64,000 bases of DNA, from the NCBI RefSeq assembly GCF_036711975.1, contig NC_091973.1:14508001-14572000 (forward strand), read 5' to 3'. Position numbers and translations under genes: made by a program. The notes under the pieces were generated by a model. That model saw nothing but the letters and a program-made list of their open reading frames with translations. It was not told the origin of the DNA and did not search any database. This document shows, piece by piece, positions 9,474 through 30,957 of this stretch; position 1 is the stretch's first letter; every line of letters starts with the position of its first letter. This DNA comes from Onthophagus taurus (taxonomy: Eukaryota > Arthropoda > Insecta > Coleoptera > Scarabaeidae).

Positions 9474-9814
9474 ACTGGTGTGAAGTTATCCATAAATCCC
9501 AGCAATAAACTTAAAACATTAATAATTCCGTAACCAATACGATTTGGGTAACCAAATTTCACACACAGGTCACTCTTACCCTCAAGAACAGCTAACCACC
9601 CCCATTTGGTAAAAAAAAAATTTTTCAACCCTCACCCCCGAAAAAGGGATGTTTTCGCCCTGATGGGCACCTTCGAATTAAACGAAATTCTACCACATAA
9701 TAGAACACACTTCTAAGTATTTTTATCAATTTTCAAAACACCTGAATTTGACCCCGTTGGGCACCTCCAAAATTGACGAAATTTTAGGATGATTTAGAGG
9801 ATGCCTTTAGCGAT
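9474..9814 (+). repeat. foldback left arm, outer part
   Basis: The outer 131 bp match the right end. After that comes a diverged and then a standard fragment of the 172-bp monomer, up to AGCGAT (9809-9814), the Polinton target duplication. The arm resumes at 27315. Confidence 0.85.
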
Positions 9815-10470
9815 AGTAGTATAGATTCGCCGATTCAAGAACCTCCTCCTCGAACCTGCGTTCTAGGAGGAGGTTCTTGAATCGGCAAATTTTTTGGGGG
9901 TCAGAGGAGGTTCGATGAGGAGAGGAGGTTCTTGAATCGGCGATTCTTTTGAGGGTCGGAGGAGATTCGATGAAGAGAGGAGGAGGTCAATTAACTTGAG
10001 AAGGTCATGTTATTTTGACGAAATTATTAAAAATTTATCTTTATTAAAAATGTATCTTTATTTAGATTATGTTATTAAAAATTTATCTTTATATGTAACC
10101 TGTTTACCTAGATGAAAACAATTACTATGTTTATCCTTCGACGCTTCTCAATGAACTGGTAATGTTTTCGATATATCTCTTAACTTATTGTACACAAAGG
10201 TATACGGTTTTGGGACATGTAGGTATACAAATAAGTGAGTCATGATCTACCTGCGGGATATTTTTTAAAATTTATTGTGTAAAGGTATACGGAGCTTTAA
10301 AATATGCGAGGAGGTTCTTGAATCGGCAAATTTTTTGGGGGGATACGTTCGAGGAGGAGGTCAATTAACTTAATACTAGTAAGTGAGTCATGATCTACCT
10401 GCGAGATATTTTTTTAATTTATTATGCAGAGGTATACGGAGTTATAAATATACATGTATACAAACGCACT
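9815..10470 (+). repeat. Polinton left terminal inverted repeat
   Basis: Pairs with about 26650-27314. It carries several dispersed copies of the submotif AGGAGGTTCTTGAATCGGC (about 9834-9960 and again near 10311), and beyond these an AT-rich part with repeated ATTAAAAATTTATC. The outer part matches the other end almost base for base, and the inner part is less alike. Confidence 0.85.
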
Positions 10471-10517
10471 CGATGCATCCTCCTCCCCCCCAATAAGTTT
10501 CAGGAGCGGTGAGGGTT

Positions 10518-10525
10518 TATAAACG
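10518..10525 (+). promoter_or_regulatory. possible TATA box for the Polinton polymerase transcript
   Basis: TATAAACG lies about 75 bp ahead of the zinc-finger start codon, just inside the left terminal repeat. No convincing initiator is visible at +1, so this rests on the TATA match and position alone. Confidence 0.35.
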
Positions 10526-10592
10526 CCTGCGAAATGTGGTATTGACGTAGTTCTTTCATAACAAGTAGAAGTGTACAACATTAAATTGTAAA

Positions 10593-11168
10593 ATGGTCGT
10601 GTGTGAGGATTGTGGAAAAAGTTTTACTCGAGTTGACAATTTAAAAAGACATCAACGATTATCTTGTATTGGCAAGAGAATCAAGCTTGACGCACCGCAA
10701 ATTCCAAAAGCAGTAAAATGTGAGGCTTGCGATGATTATGTAAATAGACAATGTTACTCTGCACATTTACGAAGCAACGCACACAAGCGTAACGCTTTTG
10801 TTATAATCGATGACGGAGTGGAGAGAATAGCTGGAGCATTCGGTGACAAAATTGTCAGTTATCGAATAAGTGAAGAAGGTTTTTTTGTGGATTTGGATGA
10901 ATTTTCTCATAGAATTCGAGAAAAAATACTAAATCTAATACAAAGCGCAATCGATATTCACCGAAATGTAAAATTAAATATGGAATGTTTTGGTTTGTAT
11001 TTTTTACAATCAAAGGAAGACTGTGAAATAAAATCATTCAATACGAAAAATAAGGTAGTATCATTAGCGTCGGATCTGTATAAAATATATAAGGAATTTA
11101 TTGATGAAATTTCATCAAAAATGTCAGAATTCCAGGAACGAGATTCAGGTAAGCGTAATGTGACATAA
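10593..11168 (+). CDS. Polinton zinc-finger protein ahead of polymerase
   Basis: 191-residue frame. Residues 4-25 form a C2HC-type finger (C4, C7, H20, C25), and a second Cys/His cluster (CEAC...H...H) lies near residues 43-63. The rest is acidic/amphipathic and probably helical. It sits directly upstream of, and in the same sense as, the polymerase region. Zinc fingers at or just before the N-terminus of Polinton polymerases are common, so it is probably part of the same gene or a DNA-binding partner. No catalytic domain is visible. Confidence 0.7.
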   Translation: MVVCEDCGKSFTRVDNLKRHQRLSCIGKRIKLDAPQIPKAVKCEACDDYVNRQCYSAHLRSNAHKRNAFVIIDDGVERIAGAFGDKIVSYRISEEGFFVDLDEFSHRIREKILNLIQSAIDIHRNVKLNMECFGLYFLQSKEDCEIKSFNTKNKVVSLASDLYKIYKEFIDEISSKMSEFQERDSGKRNVT

Positions 11169-11223
11169 TATACCTATATATTAAAAAATAAATGTTTCAA
11201 TATTTTATTTAGGATGGACTTTA

Positions 11224-14200
11224 ATGCAAATTCTCTATATGGAGTTAAATTTAAACAAATATAATCCTATCAGAGCATCTAATTACATCGATCTACCATC
11301 GCAAATAAAAGCAAAGCGTGCTGTGATAAATATACAAAACGCGGATGATGCATGTTTTGCATGGGCTGTAACATCCGCACTACATGAACCGAACGGTTTA
11401 CCACAGAGGACATCTTCGTATCCGAATTACCTAGACTGCGGCTTAGACTATTCAAATATTGTTTTTCCAGTTAAATTACGAGATATACCTGTATTTGAAA
11501 AGCAGAACAAACTATCTATTAATGTATATGGAATAAATGAGTATTTTAAAGACGGTGTTATGAATTATGACATAATTACAATGTATATATGTCGACAAAA
11601 AGAAGAAAGACATATAAATTTATTATTGGTTACAAATGATTCCGGGAATAGTCACTATTGTTGGATAAAAAATCTGTCTCGATTACTATCATCGCAAGCA
11701 TCGCAGAATGGTCATGAAAAGTATATTTGCGACGGATGCTTGGTATTCTTTACGTCAGAAAATAAACTTATCCGTCATCAAAGTGACGATTGCAGCAAGG
11801 TAAGGGCAATTTTACCAACAACAAATTTAAAAATAAATAAATATGGAAATGAAGAAAAGGAAAATATACTACAGTTCGAAAATTTTGAACGACAATTAAA
11901 AATACCGTTCGTGGTGTATGCAGATTTTGAAGCATTACAGAAACCGATCGCCGATGCGGAAGCAACAGAACTTAACGATGATAATTCATACTCCGTCAAA
12001 TGTTTCAAACACGAACCTTATGCATTTGCATATTATATAAAATGTTCATATGACGAATCATTGTCGAAGTTTGAAATATATCGCGGATGTAATGCTGCTC
12101 AAATTTTCATGAGCAAGTTGGAACATGACGTTCTGAATATATACAAAAATTATTTAAGCCAACCAAAAGAAATGCTCCCATTACCACCTATTGATAGATT
12201 AATACATGAGATGCAGGATATCTGTCACATTTGTTCGCACAAAATAAAAGAAGGTAATAAAGTGTGCGATCATGATCACCTAACTGGGTTGTATAGAGGA
12301 CCCGCACATGCTGTATGTAACATCAATTATCAATTACCAAAGTTCATACCGATATTCTTTCACAATCTTTCGAACTACGATTGTCATATGTTTGTGAAAG
12401 ATATGGCATTAAAAGAAGAAGACGTGGACGTTATAGCACAGAATAAAGAAAAGTATATATCATTTTCCAAAAAAAATTATCGTAGGAGAAAACATTGACA
12501 GCAAGGGAAAGCTAAGGCGGGTTCATATGAAATTGAGATTTGTGGATTCATTTAGGTTTATGGCTTTATCGCTAGAGAAGTTGGGTTCATTTTTGGAAGA
12601 CAACCAATGCGTTCAAATGAGAAAATATTTTAGGAACGAAGAACAGTTTCGACTTATACGTCAGAAAGGAGTTTTTCCGTATTCCTTTGTGAATTCATTC
12701 GAAAAGCTGAATCTTACCGCTCTGCCAGATCGAAGTAGTTTTTACAATACTTTATGCGACGATAGTATAACCGAAGAAAATTATTGTCGTGCACAAACGG
12801 TGTGGAACTTATTTAACTGTCGCACTTTAGGCGAATATAGCGACATTTATTTAACGTCTGACGTTTTACTTTTGGCGGACGTATTTGAGAATTTCCGAAC
12901 CATCTCGATGAAGTATTACTCTTTAGATCCATGTCATTACTTCACAGCGCCGGGCTTCGGTTGGGATGCATTATTACGAATGACAGGGGTAAAATTAGAA
13001 TTATTAACGGACATAGACATGTTACACTTCTTTAAAAATGGTATTCGCGGTGGATTAAGTATGTGCACTAAACGCAGTGCGAAGGCTAACAATAAATTAA
13101 TGATGGAATTTGATGAAACCAAAGACCCATCTTATATTTTGTATCTCGACGCTACGAATTTGTATGGACACGCAATGAGACGAAAATTACCGACGGGGGG
13201 ATTTCGATGGCTATCAGATGAAGAGATTCAAAAGTTAGATATTTACAATACGGAAGACGATTCCGAAAAGGGTTACGTGTTCGAGGTAGATTTAGAGTAT
13301 CCGGAAGCAATACATGATGAACACAACGATTTGCCATTTTGTCCAGAACGGATTGTACCCCCAGGTTCAAAAAATGCAAAGTTAATAGCAAATTTGGAAA
13401 ATAAAACAAAATACATCATTCATTACGTGAATCTAAAGCAGTGTATCAAGTTCGGATTGAAACTAACGAAGATTTACAGAGTATTAGAATTTAAACAATC
13501 CAACTGGATGCGGAGCTACATCGATTTCAATTCCGATAAACGTGCGAAAGCTAAGAATGAATTTGAAAAAAATCATTACAAAGCAATGAATAACATCGTA
13601 TACGGTAAGACAATGGAAAATGTGGAAAAGCGAGTGGATATAAGACTAGTTACCCACTGGGAATGTCGTCATAAGAAACCGGGCGTGGAAGCCCTAATAG
13701 CTAAACCAAATTTTAAATCTTCGAAAATATTTTGCGATAATTTGATAGCCGTTCAATTGAACGTCGCGGAAGTTCGTTATTGCAAACCGCTGTATGTGGG
13801 TTTCAGTATATTAGAGCTTTCGAAAACCGTAATGTACAGCTTCTTCTATGATTACTTAAAAGTTAAATATGGAAATAACATAACACTTTTATACACCGAT
13901 ACTGATTCCCTAATCCTAGAAATTACTACTCCCAATGTATATGAGGATATAAAAGAAAATATTGAATTTTTTGACACGTCCAATTATCCGTTAGAGAATA
14001 TACACAATATACCTCGCGGTCGATCTGTGTTGGGAAGAATGAAAGATGAATATCCAAACAGGTGCATAACGTCATTTGTTGGAACAGGAGCTAAGGCGTA
14101 CTGCATCACCTTGTTGAATGATAATGTAAAGAAGGCTAAAGGAGTAAAGAAATATGTTATAGATAAACATTTAAGCGTGACCGATTATAAACGTGTGGTT

Positions 14201-14386
14201 GAATGTGGCGGATCGGTTCATAAAAAAATGTACATTTTTAAGTCAGAATTTCATACTATGTATACCGAATTAAAGAATAAAATTGCTCTTTCATCGTGCG
14301 ATGATAAACGATACATATTACCGAACGGATGTAATACTTTGGCGTGGGGTCATTGGTTGATAAAAAGATTGAATGCAAATAAATGA
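11224..14386 (+). pseudogene. Polinton protein-primed DNA polymerase B (pPolB)
   Basis: Family-B DNA polymerase of the protein-primed type, which would replicate the element. In order: exonuclease motif I (YADFEAL), an endonuclease-VII-like His/Cys segment (CHICSHKI ... VCDHDHLTGLYRG), ExoII (HNLSNYDCH), ExoIII region (YLTSDVLLLADVFE), polymerase motif A (YLDATNLYG), motif B (NNIVYGKTMEN) and motif C (LLYTDTDSL). All catalytic carboxylates I look for are visible. The region carries about one break, so this copy is scored as a fossil although otherwise well preserved. It ends about 100 bp before the convergent integrase gene. Confidence 0.9.
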
Positions 14387-14488
14387 ATTTAATTTAAAAA
14401 AAATTGTAAAGAATAATAATAATAATGTATTTGTAATGTTCGATTGTTAATAAAGTCTTGTAAACTTTTAAATAGGTCTTTATACGTT

Positions 14489-15424
14489 TTAAAGAACGTT
14501 AGTTTTTGAGATCCAAGAATTATGAGACGGACCTAATCCTAACCATTTCACAAACACTTGATTTCCTTTTCGCCGTAGCACTTTTTCCACCAAGTAGACG
14601 TCAGGATATTTAACTTTTTGTAATTCCTCTCGATAAAAACCACCCATAATTTTTTCATTGGATGCATCTTTGAGCAGATATGTTGTTGGGAAAGTATTAC
14701 GAACAGAATGTATTGTAAACACTTCGTTAGACCAATTGGGAGTATAGTTTTTGGTGAAGGCGTGTCGATGCTTGCTCACTCTGACGTGATCACCGACATT
14801 AAATTTTTTGGTATAAGGATCGACAATTTTTATGTAATTATATACAGTTTTTAACAGTGTCGATGCGTTTCTGTTATTTACCTCGCTAGGTTTCATTCCT
14901 ATCGTCCTGTGAACTTGGTTGTTATAATCCAGAATTAATTTGGGAAGCAATTCCAACCAACGATAGTTACCTTGCATACTAAATTCTTTCCACATTTTTT
15001 CTTTTATTGTTCTATTAAACCGTTCAACAATAGAACTCTTTAAATTGGAAAATGAACTGTAGTGATTGATGTGATATCGTGACATGAGCTTTTTAAAATC
15101 CTCATTGTAAAATTCTTTTCCGTTATCCGTTTGCAGATTCTTCGGTATGTTTTTCCGCTTTTCCGATAGAATTGTTTCCATAGCTCGCGTAACTTCTTTG
15201 CCAGTTTTGTTTTTTAGTGGTACAGCCCATCCATACTTTGAGAAAGCATTAATAACTGTTAGAATATATTTAAAATTACCATTTGCTTTTGAATAAGGTA
15301 TCATCTCCACTAAATCAGCTTGAAATAAGTCCGTTAAACCTTTTATAATAACACGTCTGCGTTTATACTTTTTCCTCGCGGACGCGTGCAACTCGTTTAC
15401 GACGGACCTTTTAATATCGCTCAT
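14489..15424 (-). CDS. Polinton retroviral-type integrase with chromodomain
   Basis: 311 residues. The RNase-H-fold core shows the DDE triad: D37 (FQADLVE), D100 (LQTDNGKEF) and E134 (SIVERFNRT). The N-terminal HHCC zinc finger is short or absent. The C-terminal 35 residues (YLVEKVLRRKGNQVFVKWLGLG...SW) form a chromodomain, which in retroelement integrases binds histone marks and steers insertion. The enzyme makes the 6-bp staggered joining seen at this element's ends. The gene runs opposite to the polymerase and overlaps the start of the next minus-strand frame by four bases. Confidence 0.93.
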   Translation of the reverse strand: MSDIKRSVVNELHASARKKYKRRRVIIKGLTDLFQADLVEMIPYSKANGNFKYILTVINAFSKYGWAVPLKNKTGKEVTRAMETILSEKRKNIPKNLQTDNGKEFYNEDFKKLMSRYHINHYSSFSNLKSSIVERFNRTIKEKMWKEFSMQGNYRWLELLPKLILDYNNQVHRTIGMKPSEVNNRNASTLLKTVYNYIKIVDPYTKKFNVGDHVRVSKHRHAFTKNYTPNWSNEVFTIHSVRNTFPTTYLLKDASNEKIMGGFYREELQKVKYPDVYLVEKVLRRKGNQVFVKWLGLGPSHNSWISKTNVL

Positions 15425-15846
15425 TTTCTGGATATTTCAATGAGCAGTTCTACCATAAATGGTTTCTTGAGTAAAATGGTCTTCGTTGTGGGTTTGCAAA
15501 CTATTTTATCTCCAAAGAAGAGAACATTTAACTTTTTATTTGGATCGAAGATACTCCCGTTAATAATCATTTCAACGTCTCCTTCAAATCGGTATTTCAC
15601 TATTTCACCAATATATAAATAGTTTATATATTTACTTACGTAACCTAAATTTTGAATAATGTAATAATTATCCGTTGTATCCGTAGTTCCATCTCCGCTA
15701 AACGTAAGTATAGTTGGTTGTTTGAAATATCGTTGTAAGTTTTCACGTTTATTAAAATGAGCAGCAATGTTGTGTCCGTGTACGTGTTTACCAAACTTAT
15801 CGATCGTCATACTAGACGAATGTTTTCCGAACTTGCTTAAACTCAT
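15421..15846 (-). CDS. Polinton protein of unknown function (141 aa)
   Basis: Compact frame immediately upstream of the integrase on the minus strand, overlapping it by four bases. The N-terminus has a duplicated FGKHSSSMTIDKFGKHVHG motif, and the remainder looks like a beta-rich fold with several aromatic residues (NYYIIQNLGYVSKYINYLYIG). No enzyme motif is recognisable. Position and overlap suggest co-expression with the integrase. Function unknown. Confidence 0.65.
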   Translation of the reverse strand: MSLSKFGKHSSSMTIDKFGKHVHGHNIAAHFNKRENLQRYFKQPTILTFSGDGTTDTTDNYYIIQNLGYVSKYINYLYIGEIVKYRFEGDVEMIINGSIFDPNKKLNVLFFGDKIVCKPTTKTILLKKPFMVELLIEISRK

Positions 15847-15915
15847 CTGCTCTAGTTCACAAACGTCGGTGTTTTAAAACAAAAAATGTGAGAGACGTAT
15901 ATTTATGATAATATT

Positions 15916-17079
15916 TTAACGTATAATCTCGGCCTCTGTTAGCTCCGATATTATTGATGATATTTCATTGACATGTGCAGAATGACCTGCAGTTTGCGAG
16001 GCCATCAACAAACGCAGTCTGTCGACAAGTTCGTTGGGATCGTCCCAATACTCGTATTCGATAAGAGCCCCAGGAACGACTTGTTTTTGTAATGCACCAC
16101 CGACTTTTTTCTTCGGATTCGGCCAGTATTTAGCCCAATGCACCTTGGGTTTGTTACCTTCAACGATAGGCTTGATAATATTCTGAAATTTCCCACTGTC
16201 GTCCTCAGTAGTCATACCTGCCTCTGGAATGTAATTAATGTACGGAGCATTTGAACGTAGTAAGATATCTTTGTAGTTGCGCATGTCCTGAATTGTAAAT
16301 TTGCCCGGTTCGTTTTTAAATAGTAAATCATATAAACCAACGGTTCCCGTATATTTGAAGTTTCCAACGTGAATATCCTGATCCTCAAAGTGAACAGGAC
16401 TGACTCCAATGTAGAAACCTTCGGGAGTTTCGCGAACACCGTATAAACGATCATAATCATCTTTTAAATCAGTTGTTAAACCAACAATATACGTTCTGGG
16501 CAAAGGATGAAACTGACTCAAAGCGGCTTGTACCTCTGGAGACTCCAATCTTTCTTCTATTTCATCTTTAAGTCGTTCTATTCGATTATGTGCGTCCGAA
16601 ATAAGAGCTCCGGTATCCTCGCTAGAATCGAGGAGTTCTTCTTCTTCGCCCGGCGGAACTTCATATACTTCTTCTTCTGCATGAGCTAATGGACCAAGAG
16701 GAGAAGACGTGGGAGAAGATACCAACCTTTTTTCAGGAGTCGATGTAGCAAATTTTCGTCGTTGTTCTTTTAATGGAACTTTCGGTTTTCGAATAAAATA
16801 TTCGGTCTCGGTTTTAGCTGGTACGTCAGAAATATCCGGCGAGTAGCGTTGTATCTTAGATATCAATTTTTCTTCTTTTGGAGATAAACTTCGTTTTGGA
16901 ATGGATAGTAAAGGCGCAGTGTCAAGTTTTGCGATAATATCCTGTAAGGGCCTTGCGATGGGTGCATATGCGGTTTCCGACCGAATCCTTGACTCCTCTA
17001 AGTCTTCTTTTAAAGAACGAATTTTGTCTCTCACGACTTCTCGTGCCGCGATAAGTTCTGCAGCTATCGTCTTGTTCAT
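15916..17079 (-). CDS. Polinton protein with DUF8207-like C-terminal domain
   Basis: 387 residues. The N-terminal 60 residues are a coiled-coil-like helix rich in Arg, Glu and Leu, followed by a Pro/Ser-rich linker and a very acidic stretch (EEEVYEVPPGEEEELLDSSED). From about residue 235 there is a conserved domain with FKYTGTVGLYDLLFKNEPG and later YINYIPE, which I recognise as the pattern of insect proteins with DUF8207. The biochemical role is unknown. Placement between the ATPase and integrase, and its recurrence in insect Polintons, suggest a structural or packaging role, which is inference. Confidence 0.65.
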   Translation of the reverse strand: MNKTIAAELIAAREVVRDKIRSLKEDLEESRIRSETAYAPIARPLQDIIAKLDTAPLLSIPKRSLSPKEEKLISKIQRYSPDISDVPAKTETEYFIRKPKVPLKEQRRKFATSTPEKRLVSSPTSSPLGPLAHAEEEVYEVPPGEEEELLDSSEDTGALISDAHNRIERLKDEIEERLESPEVQAALSQFHPLPRTYIVGLTTDLKDDYDRLYGVRETPEGFYIGVSPVHFEDQDIHVGNFKYTGTVGLYDLLFKNEPGKFTIQDMRNYKDILLRSNAPYINYIPEAGMTTEDDSGKFQNIIKPIVEGNKPKVHWAKYWPNPKKKVGGALQKQVVPGALIEYEYWDDPNELVDRLRLLMASQTAGHSAHVNEISSIISELTEAEIIR

Positions 17080-17130
17080 TGTATGATGTATGTGAAGTTA
17101 CTACGAACTGTACAGCTGAAGTCGTTAGTT

Positions 17131-17883
17131 TTAAACTTCAATGAATTTATCAAAACCCTTACGGTAACGTCCCTTAGATACACTACAATCTAAATCAATA
17201 ACTAGGATGCCGTGTCTATTCTCCCAACAAGCATCGCTAATTTCCTTTAGCCGATGAAACTCCATATCGCTCATTATGTGATCTTCAAATACGTGTTTTA
17301 AATTTGTTAAGTCTTGTTTAAATAACACCAAAAAGTTACAATTATCGCGAACTAATTGTTTTGGAATTGCACTATAACTTTGACAAATTAGAAAACAATC
17401 AATGTTTTTATGTCGACCATACGAAAAAAATTCCTTAATGACATTTTGACCTGTACAGGAAACATCGTCAAATACGACTACCGAATATTCTTTCGCATCT
17501 TCCGGTCGAATGAACTCGTCTATATTAGAAAATTCATAGTAACCGCAATCTTTTATAGGTTCAATTAAACGTCTTAAAAAATCGTACTTATTTTGGTATA
17601 ACGAATTAGAGCATAAGTACAAGTTTAGGAAGCGCAACCCATTACGTGCAACTAAAAGCGATAACATAGCATTTGTTTTTCCGACACCTGAGGGTCCTAC
17701 AATTAAACCTCGCTTACATTTTCCACCAAATAAATTGCTGTGTCTTGTAAAGTGTTCTTCGACCGAACCATTACTAAAATTTACTATAGGCAGTGTTAGA
17801 AGTTGCGGTAAACATTTTAATTTCTCGTCGATCATGATTCTCGTACTAAATGAATTGGATAAGACTGAATGAAAATATAGCAA
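17131..17883 (-). CDS. Polinton FtsK/HerA-type packaging ATPase
   Basis: 250 residues. The Walker A loop GPSGVGKT lies at 63-70 and Walker B VVVFDD at 135-140, followed by a downstream sensor-like region (FLICQSYSAIPKQLVRDNC). This is the genome-packaging ATPase shared by Polintons, virophages and adeno-like viruses, and it would pump DNA into the capsid. Length is normal for the family. No damage is apparent. Confidence 0.92.
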   Translation of the reverse strand: MLYFHSVLSNSFSTRIMIDEKLKCLPQLLTLPIVNFSNGSVEEHFTRHSNLFGGKCKRGLIVGPSGVGKTNAMLSLLVARNGLRFLNLYLCSNSLYQNKYDFLRRLIEPIKDCGYYEFSNIDEFIRPEDAKEYSVVVFDDVSCTGQNVIKEFFSYGRHKNIDCFLICQSYSAIPKQLVRDNCNFLVLFKQDLTNLKHVFEDHIMSDMEFHRLKEISDACWENRHGILVIDLDCSVSKGRYRKGFDKFIEV

Positions 17884-17918
17884 AAGAAACTATATATACA
17901 TATATTTAAGAAGAAGAA

Positions 17919-17998
17919 TAATAATAATAATAATAATAATAATAAGTATAATACCTTAACCATTTAACCTAACATAACCTAACCTAACCTAACCTAAG
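17919..17998 (+). repeat. AAT microsatellite and short CCTAA array
   Basis: A (AAT)n run at about 17919-17943 is followed by AACATAACCTAACCTAACC and more, giving at least four perfect CCTAA units (about 17975-17996). CCTAA/TTAGG is the insect telomere pentamer. A run this short inside a Polinton is probably just simple sequence. Confidence 0.7.
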
Positions 17999-18016
17999 GA
18001 AGAGGAGGAAAAATGG

Positions 18017-18190: not shown

Positions 18191-18193
18191 AGA

Positions 18194-18328: not shown

Positions 18329-18336
18329 CTTTTTAG

Positions 18337-20074: not shown

Positions 20075-20079
20075 CTAGA

Positions 20080-21499: not shown

Positions 21500-22750
21500 C
21501 TATATTAATTGCTTAACCATTTTCGTAAGAGGCGAATACACAAATGCTCTGTCATGCAGAATTAATGCGTAAGCTGTCGTACCTTCCGGAATTGGATTTT
21601 TCGTTGAATACTCGATTTTTATTTCTACTCCGCTTTTATGTATTGCTTCCTGTTGATACGTGCAATCGATTCCAATTAACGGCGCGTAAGTTTTAAATTC
21701 TTCCGGTGAAAACAAAGGTTCGCTTTCTTGATAGTAGTATGCTTGCTGAAATCTTGAATACATATCATACAAAATCGCATAGTGATTGTTATCAAAATCC
21801 ACATTCAAATTATCGTACGGAAAACGTTCTCCATTCAAGAAAACGGTTACGTTCGTTAAGTTTATATTATCAAATAATGCCATGTTTCCTTTAAATATAC
21901 CCTTTCGATTTGTTTGAAATCCGATGATTATAAATCTAGGCGTTTCCAATTGTGGAGCAGTTTTGACGGCCCAAGATTGCTTCGTAGTTTGAGGTAATTG
22001 AGGGTACTCGTGTATTTCCCACGATCGAAAAGGAACGTGAATGTCTACGTTTCTTTCTGATAGTTTTGTTAATGCCAACTGTTCGCGTAATCCTACCGCC
22101 ACGTGAGGAACTCTCCATATAATTTTATTAATGATCAATTTCAATTTTTCGTCGTTCGGAGCGGCTGCTGGTTGAAAGATGACGTCCGTATCATCGTGTC
22201 CGCGAATTAGCACAAGTTCCTGTCGAACGTTCATCATGATCTTTCTGAAATCTTCTGCGAATCCTAGCAACGTTTTTAGCGGAACGCTAAGACCGAAATT
22301 TCCATTTTTATCTAAAGCCTTTGAAACACCCGCTATATCATCTTTCCAAGGTTTTATGTGCCAACCGGCGTTCTCTAATTTCACCACCTCGTTCTGCGTA
22401 GATGAGAAATAACCCTTCATGCATGAGCTTATACCGACGTTCCGCACACCATCAACATGTACTCCGTTAATAAGATATCGAATATCGCTAAACATAAATG
22501 CAACGGGATTGTTAACCAATTGCCCCGTTGCGCTGGCATCTTTTGTTATACTTCCGTCCGCGGCTAACTTACGAACGCTACCCTCGACGTATAGGTAACT
22601 CTCGCTCGGTAAAGTATAATTATCTATTTCCGGAATTGAAATTCTAATTTCGTCATTGTTATCGAACGTGGTCGATCCAAACGGTTGATGCGAATGGAAT
22701 TCATAACTTACGATAGAGTGATCTGTTTTTATCTTATCCGTTACTTTTAA
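21500..22750 (-). CDS. Polinton major capsid protein (double jelly-roll)
   Basis: An open minus-strand region of about 410 residues matches the insect Polinton major capsid pattern: SYEFHSHQPFGSTTFDNNDEI near the N-terminus, LPSESYLYVEGSV, then WRVPHVAVG and ETPRFIIIGFQTNRKG, and a C-terminal YALILHDRAFVYSP. The predicted fold is a double jelly-roll that would form the hexons of an icosahedral shell. The exact start is unclear because the frame is open upstream of 22750 and may begin in, or be spliced from, the 22759-22977 region. Confidence 0.85.
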   Translation of the reverse strand, partial: LKVTDKIKTDHSIVSYEFHSHQPFGSTTFDNNDEIRISIPEIDNYTLPSESYLYVEGSVRKLAADGSITKDASATGQLVNNPVAFMFSDIRYLINGVHVDGVRNVGISSCMKGYFSSTQNEVVKLENAGWHIKPWKDDIAGVSKALDKNGNFGLSVPLKTLLGFAEDFRKIMMNVRQELVLIRGHDDTDVIFQPAAAPNDEKLKLIINKIIWRVPHVAVGLREQLALTKLSERNVDIHVPFRSWEIHEYPQLPQTTKQSWAVKTAPQLETPRFIIIGFQTNRKGIFKGNMALFDNINLTNVTVFLNGERFPYDNLNVDFDNNHYAILYDMYSRFQQAYYYQESEPLFSPEEFKTYAPLIGIDCTYQQEAIHKSGVEIKIEYSTKNPIPEGTTAYALILHDRAFVYSPLTKMVKQLI

Positions 22751-22758
22751 AATGTCTA

Positions 22759-22977
22759 TTACTTTAACACTTCGTATCCTAACTGAACTAAATACCTTCG
22801 ATTGACTGGTGATAATCGATGAATGGATCGTCTTCTACTGCCGCTACGTTGACTGATGACGCGCGCTTTATAGTTTTCTCCATTAAACAATTTTCTCGCT
22901 CTGTCTCTTCTTGACCACCGCGTTCTTTTGTTTTGATATAACACTGTCATAACGTTAGTCAAATTTAAATAATTCAA
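22759..22977 (-). CDS. small basic Polinton protein (72 aa)
   Basis: Very basic (KRTRWSRRDRARK ... RRRSIHRLSPVNRRYLVQLGYEVL). The C-terminal pattern NxxYLxxLGYxVL resembles a tail shared by many small insect mobile-element proteins. It overlaps the start of the capsid region in another frame and overlaps the end of the minor capsid gene by four bases. Role unknown; DNA binding inside the particle is a guess. Confidence 0.5.
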   Translation of the reverse strand: MNYLNLTNVMTVLYQNKRTRWSRRDRARKLFNGENYKARVISQRSGSRRRSIHRLSPVNRRYLVQLGYEVLK

Positions 22978-23705
22978 TTTATCGATCTCAGGTGAACTCT
23001 CACTATTATTTCTTCTTCTCTGAAGTCTACCAAGTTTCCGTCCTGATCAAGTATACGTACTGTTAAGCTACTAATCACGTTCGTTAAAACCGGTAAATAA
23101 ACAGGTAGTTGTGGTGATTCGATTATTTTAAAACCTGCCGGAACGTTTGGGAAAAAATGATATAAAACGTGCACGGGAACTCCGTTATTATACGATCCCG
23201 TCACTAAATTACAATAAATTTGTAAGGCGTTCGTTTTATTTATGTTTACTACGAAATCGGATTCCACTTCCGTATCTCTAGGTAATATTTGAGGCTTGAA
23301 GCCAAGTAACGGCCCTATAGAATTATCGCATGCAAAATTAATTCGACGGGTACTTTTTATTAAAGAATGTTGTGTGTTATTATTCCCCTTAATCCTTATT
23401 ACGACACTTTTAGCGTGTCTTTTGTCTAGCTGTTCATTCACGAACTCGGCAATATCATCAATATCGTACGTTCCAACAGGTACTATTATATTGTTTTTAA
23501 AATGTCCTGTCTTATCTTCGTATTGGATTACGTTGTTGTTTTTATTAACGTTTGCTAAACTATTAAACGTTTCGAAATTCAAAAGAGCCAACTCGTAACT
23601 ACCAAATTCGTTCAAATAGATCGGAGGATTAAAATTACAAGTCAATTCAGATGACTTTCCAGTCAACGTAAATGTATATGTCGTGTGTATTGCTTCTTTC
23701 TCCAT
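22974..23705 (-). CDS. Polinton minor capsid (penton-like) protein
   Basis: 243 residues, beta-rich, beginning TTYTFTLTGKSSELTCNFNPP and ending SLTVRILDQDGNLVDFREEEI, the end pattern I recognise from Polinton penton-like single jelly-roll proteins. GPLLGFKP in the middle also fits the family. It would form the five-fold vertices next to the major capsid protein encoded just downstream. Looks whole. Confidence 0.85.
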   Translation of the reverse strand: MEKEAIHTTYTFTLTGKSSELTCNFNPPIYLNEFGSYELALLNFETFNSLANVNKNNNVIQYEDKTGHFKNNIIVPVGTYDIDDIAEFVNEQLDKRHAKSVVIRIKGNNNTQHSLIKSTRRINFACDNSIGPLLGFKPQILPRDTEVESDFVVNINKTNALQIYCNLVTGSYNNGVPVHVLYHFFPNVPAGFKIIESPQLPVYLPVLTNVISSLTVRILDQDGNLVDFREEEIIVRVHLRSIN

Positions 23706-23735
23706 TACTTCTGAACGTCTAAACGTCTCTAGACT

Positions 23736-24077
23736 CTAATAGGTTCTTTTATTACTTAGAAACTTCAGACACAACTGTCCGCAATTTTGATCTATTTCTC
23801 TTTGATATCGACAGTAATTATACTTTACTTGACCACCCCTACCGTCTGACAGCAAATATTGTTCAATTTCTAATAGCGGTCTTAAATCACCGTAACTGTC
23901 GAAATAGTATATGTCCTTGTCGTCTTTCTTATAGGCGACCCAATGAGTCCCTCGTCCTTTCAAGTTATCCAAGTTAACAATACCTCTTTCCTTCTTTTTA
24001 ATCTTACTCGGGAGATTGTCTCTCATAAATATACCCCGAAAATGTGGAATTTTTAGTACTTTCGCAAACTTTTCCAA
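23736..24077 (-). CDS. Polinton adenain-like cysteine protease
   Basis: 113 residues, Ulp1/adenain fold. The triad is visible as H45 (THWVAY), D60 (YYFDSYGD) and the Q97/C99-C103 segment (DQNCGQLC). It would mature capsid precursors. About usual length for the core of the family, though the N-terminus is short. It lies between the minor capsid and PLA2-domain genes. Confidence 0.88.
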   Translation of the reverse strand: MEKFAKVLKIPHFRGIFMRDNLPSKIKKKERGIVNLDNLKGRGTHWVAYKKDDKDIYYFDSYGDLRPLLEIEQYLLSDGRGGQVKYNYCRYQREIDQNCGQLCLKFLSNKRTY

Positions 24078-24112
24078 CTCGACGTTAGTTAACGCACGAC
24101 GAGGTATTCGAA

Positions 24113-25030
24113 CTAGTTTTTTGAACTAGTGGTTATACCGCAACCTTTCTTATAGGGCTTATTGAAGTAACCTGTGCCGCCAACATTATTCCCCTTTCCT
24201 TCAATAAACAAACCGCAACCTTTCTTATATGGTTTTATATAAAATCCGCTACCTACGGCCTTTGCTTCCATAGCCTTGTTATGTCTTCGTTCTTCATCTA
24301 ATTGCTCTCTAGCTGTTTTCGCGTTGTTTATAGTTCTTGCAATAGCGGCAGCACCACCGCCGATACTACCTAGGGCACCTAAAGCTGCGAACAGGGGAAT
24401 TAAAGGTAAAAATCCTCCCGTTTTCGGAATTCGAATAACTCGACCTCTAGGTTCGGAAATTCTTTTTCTTATCTTTTTCAAAGCTCCGTACGCCGCTTTA
24501 ACGTTTGTCAACAAATTCTTAGCACCTGATCTCGATATTGCGTTGCGAGCGAATCGAAGTGCATCTACAAAAGATATAGCTCCACCACGCTTTACACGCG
24601 TTCGGACTTTTTTTAAAGGTCGTCGACCCGTACGATTTCTTTTTCTACCTACGCCCATACCGACCGCTACTTTTGCTTTCATTAAGGCGGCAACTGCAGA
24701 CGATGCCACTTTTTCTCCAAGAGTAGACTCTTTATTTCGTATTCGTTCTTTCGCTGCTTTATATAATGCTCTGTCTGCGTCGTGTCTAAATTTTAAATTT
24801 GAACTGACCGTATATGCTATATCGTGTTTCTTACACGCTTCGTCTAATGGATTCACGCCTCGATCTCCTCTCGATAATCTCTTTTCCAACTTGGTACCCG
24901 GTCCACAAAAATTATATCCTGGCAAATGAAGTTCTATCGGAAGTTTATCTATCAACTTGTTAAAAAATCCTCGACCAATTCGTTTGCCTGTCAAACGATA
25001 ACTGTTACGATTAGGTTCTAACAAATTCAT
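24113..25030 (-). CDS. Polinton protein with parvovirus-type PLA2-like domain
   Basis: 305 residues. Residues 36-72 hold LPGYNFCGPGTKLEKRL ... NPLDEACKKHDIAY: the calcium-loop GPG and the catalytic HD pair of the phospholipase A2 fold seen in parvovirus VP1. In those viruses the enzyme breaches the endosome; here the role is inference. A basic, possibly DNA-binding middle (GRKRNRTGRRPLKKVRTRVKRGG in outline) is followed by a glycine/alanine-rich hydrophobic segment (GALGSIGGGAAAIARTI) that could insert in a membrane, and a repeated (K/N)KPYKKGCG tail. Confidence 0.85.
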   Translation of the reverse strand: MNLLEPNRNSYRLTGKRIGRGFFNKLIDKLPIELHLPGYNFCGPGTKLEKRLSRGDRGVNPLDEACKKHDIAYTVSSNLKFRHDADRALYKAAKERIRNKESTLGEKVASSAVAALMKAKVAVGMGVGRKRNRTGRRPLKKVRTRVKRGGAISFVDALRFARNAISRSGAKNLLTNVKAAYGALKKIRKRISEPRGRVIRIPKTGGFLPLIPLFAALGALGSIGGGAAAIARTINNAKTAREQLDEERRHNKAMEAKAVGSGFYIKPYKKGCGLFIEGKGNNVGGTGYFNKPYKKGCGITTSSKN

Positions 25031-25245
25031 TTTATAATTTCACTCCTTCTTCCTTTTCTTCACAGTTAAAAACTAGAAATGAAGCTCTGCTGTTGTGCTT
25101 TAAGCTTTTATTCCTTTTAAATATTTTACAAAAACAGTTTTGCTCTTAATTTATACTTAAATCTATTAATATTATTATTATTCAGCTACACTTAAATCTA
25201 CTAATATCCTAAAAATTAATTGTTACTCAGTTAAAAACATTTCGA

Positions 25246-25479
25246 TTACTCTACAATGCTAAAACGTTCTTGATATATATTTAATCTATAATCTACATCT
25301 AAATATTTTTCTAATAACTTATTTACGTTTCTTATCCTAGTCTTAAATCTAATTCCGTCCAACATCTTTTCTTCCCAGTCACTTATCCTTGATTGTCTGT
25401 AAGCAAACGTCCAAGTGTGCATTCGGTACACTCTATTTTTCGATTCGCAAAACGTCACTTTTTTTTCCATTTTATTCAC
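25246..25479 (-). CDS. small Polinton protein of unknown function (77 aa)
   Basis: Sequence KVTFCESKNRVYRMHTWTFAYRQSRISDWEEKMLD, with a conserved-looking M(H)xWxFAYRxxR core that recurs in small insect Polinton proteins as far as I remember. No known domain. It lies in the same direction as, and one base after, the 25481-26380 gene, so both are probably co-expressed. Confidence 0.5.
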   Translation of the reverse strand: MNKMEKKVTFCESKNRVYRMHTWTFAYRQSRISDWEEKMLDGIRFKTRIRNVNKLLEKYLDVDYRLNIYQERFSIVE

Positions 25480-25480
25480 T

Positions 25481-26380
25481 TCACATCTTCATTAATGCGT
25501 GCAAATCTAAATCCAGTAATACCTTATCCATACCGTATACGAGCAGTTCTTTAGTTACGCACAAATGTTCACTTGGTGCACCGTTTGGCGCAACCAATAT
25601 ATTCGATTTTATATCACCTTGCATTGTTGATACCACATCGATCACGCTATCGTAATAATTTTTATATTCCATACACTTTAATACTTCTACCCTACTCGAA
25701 ACTAAATCGCTAAGTTTCCACAATTCGTGTAACGAGTCGTAAGCCAGGTAAAATATTTCTGACCCCCTTTCCATTTTCAACACTTTTCGTACATTTTCTA
25801 TCCATTGGCTGCTGCAGGTCACGCCGCTTACAACGAAATGTGGTGGTGCCGATAAATCACCAACAAAACTATTCATAATCAATTGTCTGCTATTAATCAC
25901 ATTTTTCCATTCGTCTTCGGTAAAAGTTATGCATTGTCCTTTTCCCATTAATCTTATAACCGGATCAAAATGTACATTGGCAGACATGCCAACCGATATC
26001 CATTTCGTTCGACTTTTATTTAAATAATATGTACTCTCGGAGAATAATGGCGCTTGATTACCTTTTTGGAGATTATTTTTCACTGCCTCATTTAATACAA
26101 CGTTACTTGTGAAAGGTAACTTTCCACAATTTTCTACATAATGTTGTTGATTGCTAGGAAATACGTACTCCGCTAAGTCGGAAGCCAACAAATTAATTCC
26201 ATCGAATACCACATCCTTTTTTCTTTGATTATCACTTCCTAGCGACACATTTGTTGCAGTTGTCTCATTACAATTACCCTCCATTTTGATGTTTCGGGCA
26301 GGTTTTTTATTTTCACCCTTTTCAAATGAATTTACAGCAGCTCTCTTAGTTGGACATTTGGGGTTCGGTCTGGTTGCCAC
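25481..26380 (-). CDS. Polinton protein of unknown function (299 aa)
   Basis: First minus-strand gene inside the right terminal repeat. The N-terminal 60 residues are polar and probably disordered. The body contains WISVGMSANVHFDPVIRLM and ITFTEDEWKNVIN, a pattern seen in other insect Polinton proteins without assigned function, and two cysteines in GVTCSSQW. A TATAAATA box lies about 200 bp upstream (26573-26580). No enzymatic motif. Confidence 0.6.
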   Translation of the reverse strand: MATRPNPKCPTKRAAVNSFEKGENKKPARNIKMEGNCNETTATNVSLGSDNQRKKDVVFDGINLLASDLAEYVFPSNQQHYVENCGKLPFTSNVVLNEAVKNNLQKGNQAPLFSESTYYLNKSRTKWISVGMSANVHFDPVIRLMGKGQCITFTEDEWKNVINSRQLIMNSFVGDLSAPPHFVVSGVTCSSQWIENVRKVLKMERGSEIFYLAYDSLHELWKLSDLVSSRVEVLKCMEYKNYYDSVIDVVSTMQGDIKSNILVAPNGAPSEHLCVTKELLVYGMDKVLLDLDLHALMKM

Positions 26381-26649
26381 TAAACATCAATATTATTGTT
26401 TACATTAGTACATTATCTACTTGTATTACATTTGAATTACTTACTCGTTACGTTAAAAATCCTCTGTACTAAATGCACCAAAAATCTACACGATATTTTT
26501 AATATGTACTAAATACACAAAAACCTTACTCTGAAGCACAACACTCTGCGGTACAACTTCGACCAACGTTTGTATTTATAGCAATACATAAGGTTGCTGG
26601 TGGGGGGAGTAATATTTCACATCATTACCGAATATATCTATTATACATG

Positions 26650-27314
26650 TTCTAACACGTCATTATATCGTGAGACGTCAGACAAAACGCATGACAAATT
26701 TATTAAGAAGCTCTTAAAAAATATCTCGCAGGTGGATCATGACTCATCTACTAACAAGTTAGTTGACCTCCTCCTCAAACCTGTCCTCCCAAAAAATTTG
26801 CCGATTCAAGAACCTCCTCGCATATTCTTAAATACCCGTACACCTTTACATAATAAAATAAAAAATATCTCGCAGGTAAGTTATGACTCACTTATTTGTA
26901 TACCTACATATCTCAAAACCGTATACCTTTGTGTATAATAATAAATTAAGAGATATATCGAAAACATTAACAGTTCATTGAGAAGCGTCGAAGGATAAAC
27001 ATAGTAATTGTTTTCATCTAGGTAAACAGGTTACATATAAAGATAAATTTTTAATAACATAACCTAAATAAAGATACATTTTTAATAAAGATAAATTTTT
27101 AATAATTTCGTCAAAATAACATGACCTTCTCAAGTTAATTGACCTCCTCCTCTCTTCATCGAATCTCCTCCGACCCTCAAAAGAATCGCCGATTCAAGAA
27201 CCTCCTCTCCTCATCGAACCTCCTCTGACCCCCAAAAAATTTGCCGATTCAAGAACCTCCTCCTAGAACGCAGGTTCGAGGAGGAGGTTCTTGAATCGGC
27301 GAATCTATACTACT
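26650..27314 (-). repeat. Polinton right terminal inverted repeat
   Basis: Inverted partner of 9815-10470, ending CTATACTACT before the AGCGAT duplication. It contains the same GATTCAAGAACCTCCTC submotif repeats. The DNA between the 26380 gene start and the repeat (26381-26650) holds only the TATA-like box and AT-rich sequence. Confidence 0.85.
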
Positions 27315-28397
27315 AGCGATTGAAATCAACCATCCAAACACCGTAATGTATTACGGTTTCCGAGAAAAAAAATCTGTTATTAGACACTATCGGTATACAG
27401 CGCGGCGCGGACTTTGGGGGTGAATTTGACCCCGTTGGGCACCTCCAAAATTGACGAAATTTTAGGATGATTTAGAGGATGCCTTTAGCGATTGAAATCA
27501 ACCATCCAAACACCGTAATGTATTACGGTTTCGGAGAAAAAAAATGTGTTATTAGACACTATAGGTATACAGCGCGGCGCGGACTTTGGGGGTGAATTTG
27601 ACCCCGTTGGGCACCTCCAAAATTGACGAAATTTTAGGATGATTTAGAGGATGCCTTTAGCGATTGAAATCAACCATCCAAACACCGTAATGTATTACGG
27701 TTTCCGAGAAAAAAAATGTGTTATTAGACACAATAGGTATACAGCGGGGCGCGGACTTTGGGGGTGAATTTGACCCCGTTGGGCACCTCCAAAATTGACG
27801 AAATTTTAGGATGATTTAGAGGATGCCTTTAGCGATTGAAATCAACCATCCAAACACCGTAATGTATTACGGTTTCCGAGAAAAAAAATGTGTTATTAGA
27901 CACAATAGGTATACAGCGGGGCGCGGACTTTGGGGGTGAATTTGACCCCGTTGGGCACCTCCAAAATTGACGAAATTTTAGGATGATTTAGAGGATGCCT
28001 TTAGCGATTGAAATCAACCATCCAAACACCGTAATGTATTACGGTTTCGGAGAAAAAAAATCTGTTATTAGACACTATAGGTATACAGCGCGGCGCGGAC
28101 TTTGGGGGTGAATTTGACCCCGTTGGGCACCTCCAAAATTGACGAAATTTTAGGATGATTTAGAGGATGCCTTTAGCGATTGAAATCAACCATCCAAACA
28201 CCGTAATGTATTACGGTTTCCGAGAAAAAAAATCTGTTATTAGACACTATCGGTATACAGCGCGGCGCGGACTTTGGGGGTGAATTTGACCCCGTTGGGC
28301 ACCTCCAAAATTGACGAAATTTTAGGATGATTTAGAGGATGCCTTTAGCGATTGAAATCAACCATCCAAACACCGTAATGTATTACGGTTTCCGAGA
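27315..28397 (+). repeat. 172-bp tandem monomers, foldback left arm
   Basis: The reference hexamer AGCGAT recurs at 27315, 27487, 27659, 27831, 28003, 28175 and 28347, exactly 172 bp apart, so the period is constant. Monomers differ by only a few bases. Each includes the palindrome ACCGTAATGTATTACGGT and a GC-rich block (CAGCGCGGCGCGGAC). The left end is the Polinton insertion site. Confidence 0.95.
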
Positions 28398-28469: not shown

Positions 28470-28475
28470 TTTATT
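28470..28475 (-). terminator. poly(A) signal of the SGNH gene
   Basis: AATAAA on the minus strand, beginning three bases after the TAA stop (28479-28481), giving a very short 3' untranslated region. Confidence 0.6.
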
Positions 28476-28478
28476 ATA

Positions 28479-29230
28479 TTAATGGTCTGTTTTACTTATA
28501 ATTAAATTGTGTAATGGATTGAGAATATTATTATAATTAGTTGCTACCGCGTTCCAAACCGCTTCCAATCCTTGTTCATTTAAGTGAATGCCATCCCTGT
28601 GTAGAAATTTGTATTAAACACATAAGAAAAGAAAAATTTTCACGTTGTGTTACCCTTCCATCATGTTTCTGTTAACAATTGCTTCAATGTCGGTACAATT
28701 GATTTGCTTTTCAGCACAAAACCGTCGAATGTAATGATTGATTTCCTATAAAGGCATAGAGAGTATTTATTTATAGCATGACATAGAAATTATAATATCT
28801 TACGTTCACAGACTCGAAGTTTTTGCAGGGAGGAATTGTGCAAATTTGTATTCCTTTAGGATTTAAGGAAAGAAGGAAGCGGAAGAGGTGAGAATATTGG
28901 GACTTTAGTTGGGATGGTGATGTTTTGTGGAGTATATCGTTAGTTCCTATCATTATAACGATATGTCGTTCAACAATATCTCCACAAAACCAAGGGGAAC
29001 ATGTTTTTGGAATACACTTTGCGCGCCGCAAAAGTTTTAGTATTGTTTGACCGCCTACTGCTAAGTCGAGGAAATATTTTCCGTTGCTTGTCCGTTTTGA
29101 TTGTCGTCCTAAAAATATATACCATTAGTAGGAATTAACTTCATATCTGTTAAAACAAATACTTACTTTGTATAGTACGTAGCATTCGGCAAAAATTACT
29201 ATCGCCCAAAAACAGTAATTTCGTCGGCAT
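28479..29230 (-). CDS. SGNH/GDSL hydrolase, four exons, intact
   Basis: Four exons on the minus strand: 29167-29230, 28804-29108, 28654-28745 and 28479-28596. All three introns are GT-AG and short (55-58 bp), and phases agree throughout, giving 192 residues with no stop. Blocks of the SGNH family are in order: GDSN with nucleophile S11, the glycine of block II (AVGGQT, G40/G41), GTND with N78, and DGIH with D155 and H158. The family hydrolyses esters of lipids, sugars or other substrates; the substrate here is unknown. No signal peptide is evident, so a cytosolic enzyme is likely. It is the sole gene of the foldback transposon. It could be a captured host gene or a resident element gene. Confidence 0.85.
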
Positions 29231-29272
29231 CTTCGCTGGTCACTGGTTTTAACAAGAGATAAGCAGAACAAC

Positions 29273-29305
29273 TGATCTCTGCAATAGCTGAGGAACCTTT
29301 ATATA
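29273..29305 (-). promoter_or_regulatory. TATA box and initiator of the SGNH gene
   Basis: TATATAAAGG starts at 29305 on the minus strand, and ATCAGTT, a strong insect initiator, places +1 at 29273, 32 bases downstream. The 5' leader to the ATG at 29230 would be 43 bases. The exact spacing supports a working core promoter. Confidence 0.7.
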
Positions 29306-29309
29306 TTAT

Positions 29310-30061
29310 TAAGTTCTTACCTGTGTTACAGTAATATCGATGGCTATGATTGGTCAAAGCCGGTGTAAGTGTACTTACAATGCACTAACTCGTAAGCCAC
29401 GTACCTGCTTAAGTGACCTTTTTACTGAAAAGAAGTTAAAAAGGAATTCCCTGTACATTTATTAACATCAAAAATAAGTTTCTGAATATCACTATTTCTT
29501 TATTAACTTCGCGCTTCTAAATGAAGACGTCGTTACCTCGCCAAATATTAATATATATATATTATATATTTAATTAAATATAACTATATTTGTAATTTAT
29601 AATTTATATTATATATAAATATAATAACTTATTTATACACAATATATTATATACACAAAAATATTAACGAAAATATCGAAGCAGATTGATTCTAAAAAGA
29701 ACCGATAAAATATCCATAAAGCGCGAACTACAGCAAAATATATCAACTAGTGATCTCCGTCCCCAATAGAATAGTTTAAGCACATTTATAAGTTTACTCC
29801 TCACCCTTCTGGCAAAATCTAAAAAAAAACAAAGGCGCTCTAAAACAACGAATAAGTCGGCAACTATTTTCCCGGAATGCACTTATAATGCAAAAAATAT
29901 GGACATATTTTTTCCTTAATACCTGCGCCTTTTGTAACTGCACGTGGCGGAGTTCTTACCCTTTGTCAGTAACGACTAAAAGCTCATAAAACTACAAAAT
30001 GCCTTTCTTAACAAAATTTATTTTTTCCATGAAATATTAAGAGTTTCGCAGTTTTCATAAT
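29310..30061. other. foldback core, non-coding
   Basis: Between the SGNH promoter and the right arm I see no gene. About 29540-29660 is nearly pure A/T with TATATA runs. The rest has no convincing reading frame or repeat. Confidence 0.6.
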
Positions 30062-30957
30062 CTATTAAAATCGCTAAAGGCACCTGCTATCTGGTCTACA
30101 TACGTGTACAATTTAATAACAAATTTTTTTCTCTGAAGCCGTTAAGGGTTACGGTGTCTTGACGGTCGATTTAAATCGCTAAAGGCATCCTCTAAATCAT
30201 CCTAAAATTTCATCAATTTTGGAGGTGCCCAACGGGGTCAAATTCACCCCCAAAGTCCGCGCCGCGCTGTATACCGATAGTGTCTAATAACAAATTTTTT
30301 TTCTCGGAAACCGTTATACCTTACGGTGTTTGGATGGTCGATTTAAATCGCTAAAGGCATCCTCTAAATCATCCTAAAATTTCATCAATTTTGGAGGTGC
30401 CCAACGGGGTCAAATTCACCTCCAAAGTCGACGCCGCGCTGTATACCTATAGTCTAATAACAAATTTTTTTTCTCGGAAACCGTTATACCTTACGGTGTT
30501 TGGATGGTCGATTTAAATCGCTAAAGGCATCCTCTAAATCATCCTAAAATTTCGTCAATTTTGGAGGTGCCCAACGGGGTCAAATTCACCCCCAAAGTCC
30601 GCGCCGCGCTGTATACCTATAGTGTCTAATAACACATTTTTTTTCTCGGAAACCGTAATACATTACGGTGTTTGGATGGTCGATTTAAATCGCTAAAGGC
30701 ATCCTCTAAATCATCCTAAAATTTCGTCAATTTTGGAGGTGCCCAACGGGGTCAAATTCACCCCTAAAGTCCCATCCGCGGTTTATAAGAATGATTTTTT
30801 TTCTCGAAAACCGTTAGGGCTTACGGTGGGGGTGGTAAGCTGTTCTTGAGGGTAAGAGTGACCTCTGTGTGAAATTTGGTTACCCAAATCGTATTAGTTA
30901 CGGAATTATTAATGTTTTAAGTTTATTGCTGGGATTTATGGATAACTTCACACCAGT
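30062..30957 (-). repeat. foldback right arm with inverted 172-bp monomers
   Basis: Same monomer as 27315-28397 in opposite orientation. The reference position recurs at 30177, 30349, 30519 and 30691 (172, 170 and 172 bp), with one diverged partial unit near 30072. The outer 131 bp (about 30827-30957) match 9474-9604 inverted. Monomers here differ a little more from each other than in the left arm. Confidence 0.9.

Follow-up and report, generated by a model that had tools for sequence, protein, structure and literature searches.

A foldback element family of the beetle Onthophagus taurus with a resident spliced SGNH hydrolase gene, probably a non-autonomous relative of Rehavkus

In a 64,000-nucleotide stretch of the genome of the scarab beetle Onthophagus taurus (assembly GCF_036711975.1, contig NC_091973.1, positions 14,508,001 to 14,572,000; the window hereafter), a spliced gene for an SGNH hydrolase lies between the matched ends of what an initial annotation, made from the sequence alone, took to be a foldback-type transposon at 9474..30957. 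The locus raises the question of why a foldback element should contain an esterase gene in its middle and no transposase. We give a probability of about 0.83 to the reading that it is a non-autonomous foldback of the Mutator-related Rehavkus group, in which a complete SGNH gene, equipped with promoter-like motifs, introns, and a poly(A) signal of its own, has taken the place of the transposase gene. Overall, the earlier proposal of a non-autonomous foldback element carrying an intron-bearing esterase gene with its own promoter-like motifs is supported, with the amendments given below.

Anatomy and distribution of the foldback family

The element in the window is bounded by inverted copies of a 131-bp end, which are 97.7% identical in a self-comparison of the window (three mismatches), with the 9-bp duplication AAGAAATAC on both flanks and with inverted arrays of 172-bp monomers inside the ends (Table 1). 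These features had been described correctly. However, the span had been read as one element, and a second mobile element at 9815-27314, a nested Polinton/Maverick, had been overlooked; the left arm of the span is mostly insert because the Polinton occupies this region. The absence of a transposase is correct for the foldback element and does not extend to the whole span with the Polinton inside, and the four-exon gene is complete as proposed but lies in the middle only if the insert is disregarded. Minus the Polinton, the foldback element is approximately 3.98 kb long (21,484 - 17,506). Its right arm lacks the subterminal 138-bp segment, and the array there reaches the end directly.

The gene is on the minus strand and has four exons, GT-AG introns, and a coding sequence of 579 nt for 192 amino acids; its product matches Pfam Lipase_GDSL_2 (E 2.9e-12, 47.9 bits). 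The TATA-like and initiator-like motifs upstream are presumably its core promoter. In class A, the version of the gene to which the window copy belongs, the catalytic blocks Ser (GDS), Gly, Asn (GTND), and His (DxxH) are present as GDSN, GTND, and DGIH; the block names are also found in a paper on the fish texim genes (PMC4021074).

Table 1. Features of the foldback element and its nested insert, in window coordinates.
Feature	Position	Strand	Remark
Target-site duplication, left, 9 bp, AAGAAATAC	9465-9473		
Outer terminal inverted repeat, left, 131 bp	9474-9604	+	97.7% to 30827-30957
Subterminal 138-bp segment	9605-9742	+	in both arms of 14/14 other two-ended copies
Partial 172-bp monomer of left array, broken by nested Polinton	9743-9814	+	72 bp, 100% to monomers in 27421-28352
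6-bp duplication AGCGAT, left copy, made by nested Polinton	9809-9814		right copy 27315-27320
Nested Polinton/Maverick (17.5 kb), separate from the foldback	9815-27314		
Left 172-bp tandem array, remainder	27315-28397		includes second AGCGAT, 27315-27320
AATAAA, poly(A)-signal-like motif	28470-28475	-	three bases past the stop codon
SGNH exon 4	28479-28596	-	DGIHLN block and stop
SGNH exon 3	28654-28745	-	
SGNH exon 2	28804-29108	-	GTND block
SGNH exon 1	29167-29230	-	start and GDSN block
TATA-like TATATAAAG and initiator-like TCAGTT	29270-29305	-	from 29305 and from 29275, 30 nt apart
Stretch 5' of the SGNH gene, with homology to the DNA preceding the transposase gene in three relatives	29638-30089	-	same orientation; 67-85% in pieces
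Right 172-bp tandem array, inverted relative to left array	30114-30772		
Outer terminal inverted repeat, right	30827-30957	-	97.7% to left end
Target-site duplication, right, 9 bp, AAGAAATAC	30958-30966		

The genome searched comprises 290.8 Mb in 33 contigs. With up to three mismatches, the first 26 bp of the 131-bp end gave 113 forward and 119 reverse matches, and the reversed pattern, used as control, gave 0, by which an origin of the ends by chance or artefact is ruled out. The element is a multi-copy family with about a hundred copies. Pairs were counted on 100 listed end places, all exact, which run into contig C7; they form 41 complete pairs shorter than 30 kb (range 2.76-11.75 kb) and leave 18 lone ends. 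A match to SGNH exon 2 lies inside 40 of these 41 pairs, and in the only pair without the gene (C3:9696169-9699316, L027) the two arrays meet, as arms without a loop or core. The initial annotation had proposed that the same ends would recur at several loci, with the same gene between them and with differing duplications, and this is what is observed.

Fifteen copies were read at both ends, the window copy included, the others being drawn from the 40 best end matches. Exact duplications of 9 bp flank 11/15 and duplications of 8 bp flank 3/15, their sequences differing from locus to locus, and one copy has none. The 14 other two-ended copies are laid out as end, 138-bp segment, array, core (none in L027), inverted array, 138-bp segment, and end. 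Long inverted arms with tandem repeats, typical of foldback elements, are therefore present in L009-L015, L016/17, L019, L021, and L025-L028; the duplications fall within the foldback range of 8-10 bp, and the transposase-bearing relative described below also has 9 bp. Array length and core orientation are variable, L010 and L028 are interrupted, and L021 has a second partial core. A transposase in the large copies was considered and rejected: the 11.5-kb copy (L016/L017) is array around an SGNH gene, and the 5.3-kb piece read of the 11.75-kb copy (L024) is array and end. Eleven of the 18 lone ends were read for ~3 kb inward (L075-L085), and several of them hold other repeats; one contains a short diverged SGNH copy (L080), and another led to the transposase relative (L081). 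The 172-bp monomer itself gave 525 matches from the 40 scored of 177 candidate places.

A transposase-bearing relative and the link to Rehavkus

At C6:30999869-31005324, the ends of the family (97.7% and 95%) and the 9-bp duplication CTTCGCAAG on both sides enclose a transposase fragment (residues 1-209) together with further nested repeats. A transposase-bearing relative with the same termini, as the initial annotation had envisaged, does exist, but as a fragment only. The clearest copy of the transposase, a 670-aa open frame (L087), is at C11:7619907-7621916; the third copy, at C8:20327213-20354130, is broken. The stretch upstream of the SGNH gene that is shared with these relatives stops ~150 bp before the transposase start (C11) and ~400 bp before the SGNH start (window). 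In the same-ended relative, the fragment thus occupies the place homologous to that of the SGNH gene.

Rehavkus is described as having a PHD finger, a 9-bp duplication, and a minisatellite (PMC6446971), and Rehavkus-1_TC of Tribolium as having 164-bp repeats in its inverted termini (PMC10218199). The present family shares with it a beetle host, 9-bp duplications, and tandem repeats of ~164 bp (172 bp here) in inverted termini, and differs in having an SGNH gene instead of a transposase. Relatives of the transposase in the same genome include ten places (28-30% identity) for which the search gives open frames of 1107-1436 aa, two of the ten with a stop inside the match. L092 on C3 (977 aa, and 257 aa in line past a stop) matches Peptidase_C48 (E 2e-10) and PHD (E 0.0015); L093 on C1 (1380 aa) matches the same Ulp1-like Peptidase_C48 (E 3.7e-4) and PHD (E 0.47). 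Both are flanked by inverted tandem arrays, so that Ulp1-like and weak PHD-like matches lie between such arrays as in Rehavkus. Such Ulp1-like and PHD-like matches were seen only in these more distant relatives, the same-ended relative at C6 having residues 1-209 of the transposase. L092, L093, and L094 contain no SGNH match. Since no transposase, and hence no transposase with a PHD finger of its own, was seen in the SGNH elements read, the claim is one of a non-autonomous relative and not of an autonomous member of Rehavkus. The common Pfam-type Mutator-like element (MULE; PF10551, 16 genome matches) was rejected as the mobiliser, the four of 16 that were read (L051-L054, ~3.3 kb each) being without the ends of the family.

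Two places of the transposase relatives on C7 (28721715 and 28789003) score equally, and because of this the Rehavkus-like group may be recently active or duplicated. In the joined sequence of L081 and L086, a further foldback with ~900-bp arms (91.5%) is nested in the transposase relative at 1136-3560, and a palindrome-like stretch follows at 3710-4626.

The most likely course of events for the non-autonomous Rehavkus relative is as follows. A Rehavkus-like transposase made elsewhere would bind the ends, cut, and re-insert the element, duplicating 9 bp, and the arrays would lengthen and shorten by recombination. The SGNH gene probably entered the ancestor of gene classes A, B, and C at a point just after the region that had formerly preceded the transposase gene, bringing its own core promoter. 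It would have been mildly constrained in the founder lineage and then have become cargo, intact in class A and dead but mobile in class B. The Polinton inserted later into the window copy.

Several points weigh against this reading. The two-ended copy L019 has no duplication, and no intact transposase copy with the ends of the family was found in the searches. The 670-aa frame has no recognisable ends in the DNA fetched around it, and of 7074 public candidates none matches it at E<=0.001. Its core matches the MULE transposase domain weakly (E 0.055, below the Pfam cut-off); the PHD matches of L092 and L093 are likewise below the Pfam cut-offs. The assignment to Rehavkus was made by described traits and not by identity to a consensus sequence, and mobilisation in trans, expression, and the order of events are steps that we infer.

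Classes of the gene and competing explanations

Thirty-six full gene copies were read, the window copy included, as a non-random sample picked by rank and availability. Of 22 class-A-like copies, 18 are intact and four frame-shifted; fifteen class-A copies show 0-2 changes from the window gene over exons and introns, and seven of these are identical to it. In class B (14/14 copies read), RTKD replaces GTND, DGIY replaces DGIH, and the intron-1 donor is gone; three of the 14 also have a stop, and the next visible GT, judged by eye, would break the frame if used as splice donor. By its sequence, class B is catalytically dead, yet it is common: of the 89 places listed for exon 2, at least 41 show its exact hit pattern. 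O. taurus LOC111429034 of NCBI, which among public proteins is closest to the window SGNH (94% identity over 89%), bears class-B residues. SGNH 'genes' predicted in this species can therefore be transposon copies.

Twenty further diverged gene places were fetched (L055-L074), most of which are broken or partial. Class C (L058-L060, L062, and L068) is without exon 3 and an exon-1 match, and keeps Asn and His, with DDIH instead of DGIH in 3/5. One class-C copy, L095, the only one read so far out, has an end (107 bp, 90.7%) and a 138-bp segment (93.5%) on one side, and a second end was not seen in the 3.5 kb fetched. On C7, four class-C-like copies (30796903, 30809432, 30821646, and 30835056) are spaced at ~12-13 kb, which suggests a tandem duplication carrying the element.

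Selection on the gene was assessed by the ratio of nonsynonymous to synonymous divergence (dN/dS). Between class A and three non-independent class-C copies, dN/dS is 0.40-0.49 (one-sided Fisher p 0.028, 0.008, and 0.006) with dS of ~0.2, and between class A and L057 it is 0.40 (p 0.04). The ratio between classes A and B is not different from neutral (p 0.28); short pieces compared with class A have values above 1 (L069, 1.24; L070, 1.75), and pairs among C-like copies range from 0.86 to 1.63. The 15 young class-A copies have together five nonsynonymous changes and one synonymous change from the window gene, without a signal of constraint. The old lineages thus appear to have been under mild purifying selection and the young copies under none, a pattern that fits a constrained founder lineage with drifting offspring copies. 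Accordingly, the suggestion that the gene is perhaps kept functional may hold for class A, in which the blocks are intact, but not for class B, in which two catalytic residues and the intron-1 donor are lost.

These data bear on an unlikely alternative, that the SGNH protein serves the element as an accessory enzyme which aids transposition, transmission, or escape from silencing and is kept by selection on the transposon. The near-universal presence of the gene (40/41 listed pairs), the intact catalytic blocks of class A, and the mild constraint in old lineages would all agree with this, as would the recurrence of SGNH/esterase domains in mobile elements, as in the texim genes of fish, which are tied to Helitrons and related to CR1-encoded proteins (PMC4021074). 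On the other hand, every class-B copy read has lost the catalytic Asn and His, and the class multiplied all the same, which speaks against a requirement for the enzyme in cis. Moreover, L027 is a complete copy without any gene, and the changes among the young class-A copies, given above, show no constraint.

Quite unlikely, in our estimate, is an ordinary capture of the Pack-MULE type, in which the copy of a host gene is caught by a Mutator-like element and has no function there. There is an insect precedent in Drosophila, Ssk-FB4, in which a nearly whole, multi-exon gene with upstream DNA is found in four copies of an FB4 foldback with differing duplications (PMC8277862); the foldback/MULE-like form and the spliced gene are shared with the present family. 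However, that gene has a living parent and four element copies, whereas here no parent is seen and dozens of copies fall into diverged classes. The search for a host copy covered the listed gene places: 35 of 89 are on C1, C2, C3, and C5, of which 33 are inside a complete pair and two beside a lone exact end, and the fragment L070 at C6:30181126 has no exact end nearby among the ends listed. P0003, a relative from the firefly Aquatica leii, matches 68 genome places, all of which are listed places of this gene (68/68), and therefore no separate host gene of this kind was seen; the 23 places of another public relative, P0005, are likewise gene places as compared by eye. A host copy outside the elements was thus not seen among the matches listed, with the ends checked for the 35 places on C1, C2, C3, and C5, and a distant host relative may lie among weaker matches beyond this list. 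The analogy to Pack-MULEs drawn in the initial annotation fails where it was tested, because no parental copy is seen outside the elements. In addition, the end at L095 and the dS of ~0.2 between classes A and C indicate that the gene already lay between such ends when the three classes diverged.

It is very doubtful whether the SGNH gene is a true transposon gene and not a passenger, belonging to an element-resident esterase lineage related to small stand-alone SGNH proteins that match the OSK domain of the germ-plasm gene oskar. If so, Rehavkus-type foldbacks would join CR1 retrotransposons and the fish Helitrons as mobile DNA associated with SGNH enzymes. Among solved structures, the profile A2, built from the family and four public relatives, matches a bacterial GDSL lipase (3p94, E 2.8e-9) and, about equally well, the Oskar OSK domain (5a4a, E 7.8e-9); it also matches 4c1b (E 5.9e-5), a retrotransposon ORF1 protein. 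The profile of the family alone (A1) has no match to solved structures at E<=0.1, and the Pfam OSK match of the family is below the cut-off (25.2 vs 27). The public proteins P0002-P0005 are small stand-alone SGNH proteins that pass both the OSK and the GDSL_2 cut-offs of Pfam, and P0003 and P0005 retain GTND and DGIH. Oskar is the top match of P0005 alone (E 4.2e-6), and P0003 alone matches bacterial enzymes and not Oskar at E<=0.1. A single-sequence structure prediction of P0001 was of too low confidence to be of use (mean predicted local distance difference test score, pLDDT, 36.8). Blondel et al. report that BLAST retrieved nothing OSK-like from eukaryotes and that the only eukaryotic hits of their profile search were fungal (PMC7250577). 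The similarity to Oskar is a lead and not a result; if true, transposons could have supplied the SGNH module behind the OSK domain of Oskar, contrary to the current view of a direct bacterial transfer.

That the locus is a chimera, an artefact of assembly, or a chance neighbourhood of two unrelated repeats is scarcely credible: the span does combine two elements, but the same architecture recurs at 15 loci with both ends, of which 14 have an 8-9-bp duplication of their own, and the existence of the family refutes the idea.

The nested Polinton and comparison with known systems

The insert in the window copy has AG-starting inverted termini of ~600 bp (94%) and a 6-bp duplication, as expected of a Polinton/Maverick. 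Among its open reading frames (ORFs) are an integrase (rve), which ends in a weak chromo match, and others that match Pox_A32-like ATPase, double-jelly-roll capsid, and PLA2-like domains of Pfam. Two long overlapping ORFs (11185-12498 and 12437-14386) look by eye like protein-primed DNA polymerase B and have no Pfam polymerase match; further ORFs are present. The left terminus is multi-copy: the genome has 202 candidates for it, and the 40 that were scored are 93-100% identical (window included). The insert is an element separate from the SGNH foldback, and the likeness to Polintons concerns 9815-27314 only; it sits within a 172-bp monomer and was therefore inserted after the foldback element. 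Polinton-like ORFs, judged by eye, also adjoin an end of the foldback family at C5:2190200-2193370 (L078) and the transposase copy of its relative at C8:20322800-20327700 (L091). Just left of the foldback insertion site in the window is a further element (5518-9398) with 829-bp inverted termini (99.8%), and window 1-4617 contains a 375-570 bp repeat (~99%) in direct and inverted order.

The architecture of the foldback is already known from Tetris, Rehavkus-1_TC, and Ssk-FB4; what is new is a complete gene as near-universal cargo. Tetris, a foldback of Drosophila virilis, has an outer domain and ~220-bp tandem repeats in long inverted arms, the same arm design, with 8-10 bp duplications and no known transposase copy (PMC4079207). 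It is reported to lack a conserved ORF and to be structurally complete in three copies, whereas here the gene is in the middle of nearly all listed complete pairs. In texim of fish, an intron-bearing SGNH gene is likewise tied to a DNA transposon; however, the transposon is a Helitron and not a foldback, copies are few, and the gene is adjacent to the transposon and not in the place of the transposase (PMC4021074). No description of an element of this form was found in the titles and abstract openings listed from the open-licence literature, and the main text of an arthropod MULE paper (PMC13359780) contains neither 'Onthophagus' nor 'hydrolase'.

In O. taurus, a transposon family of about a hundred copies thus has an enzyme gene that is complete, spliced, and predicted to bear a promoter, at the position taken by the transposase gene in a relative. 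Since this one genome contains both intact and dead versions of the enzyme gene, in elements that otherwise resemble each other, the family offers a natural test of whether the cargo of a transposon is a passenger or a partner.

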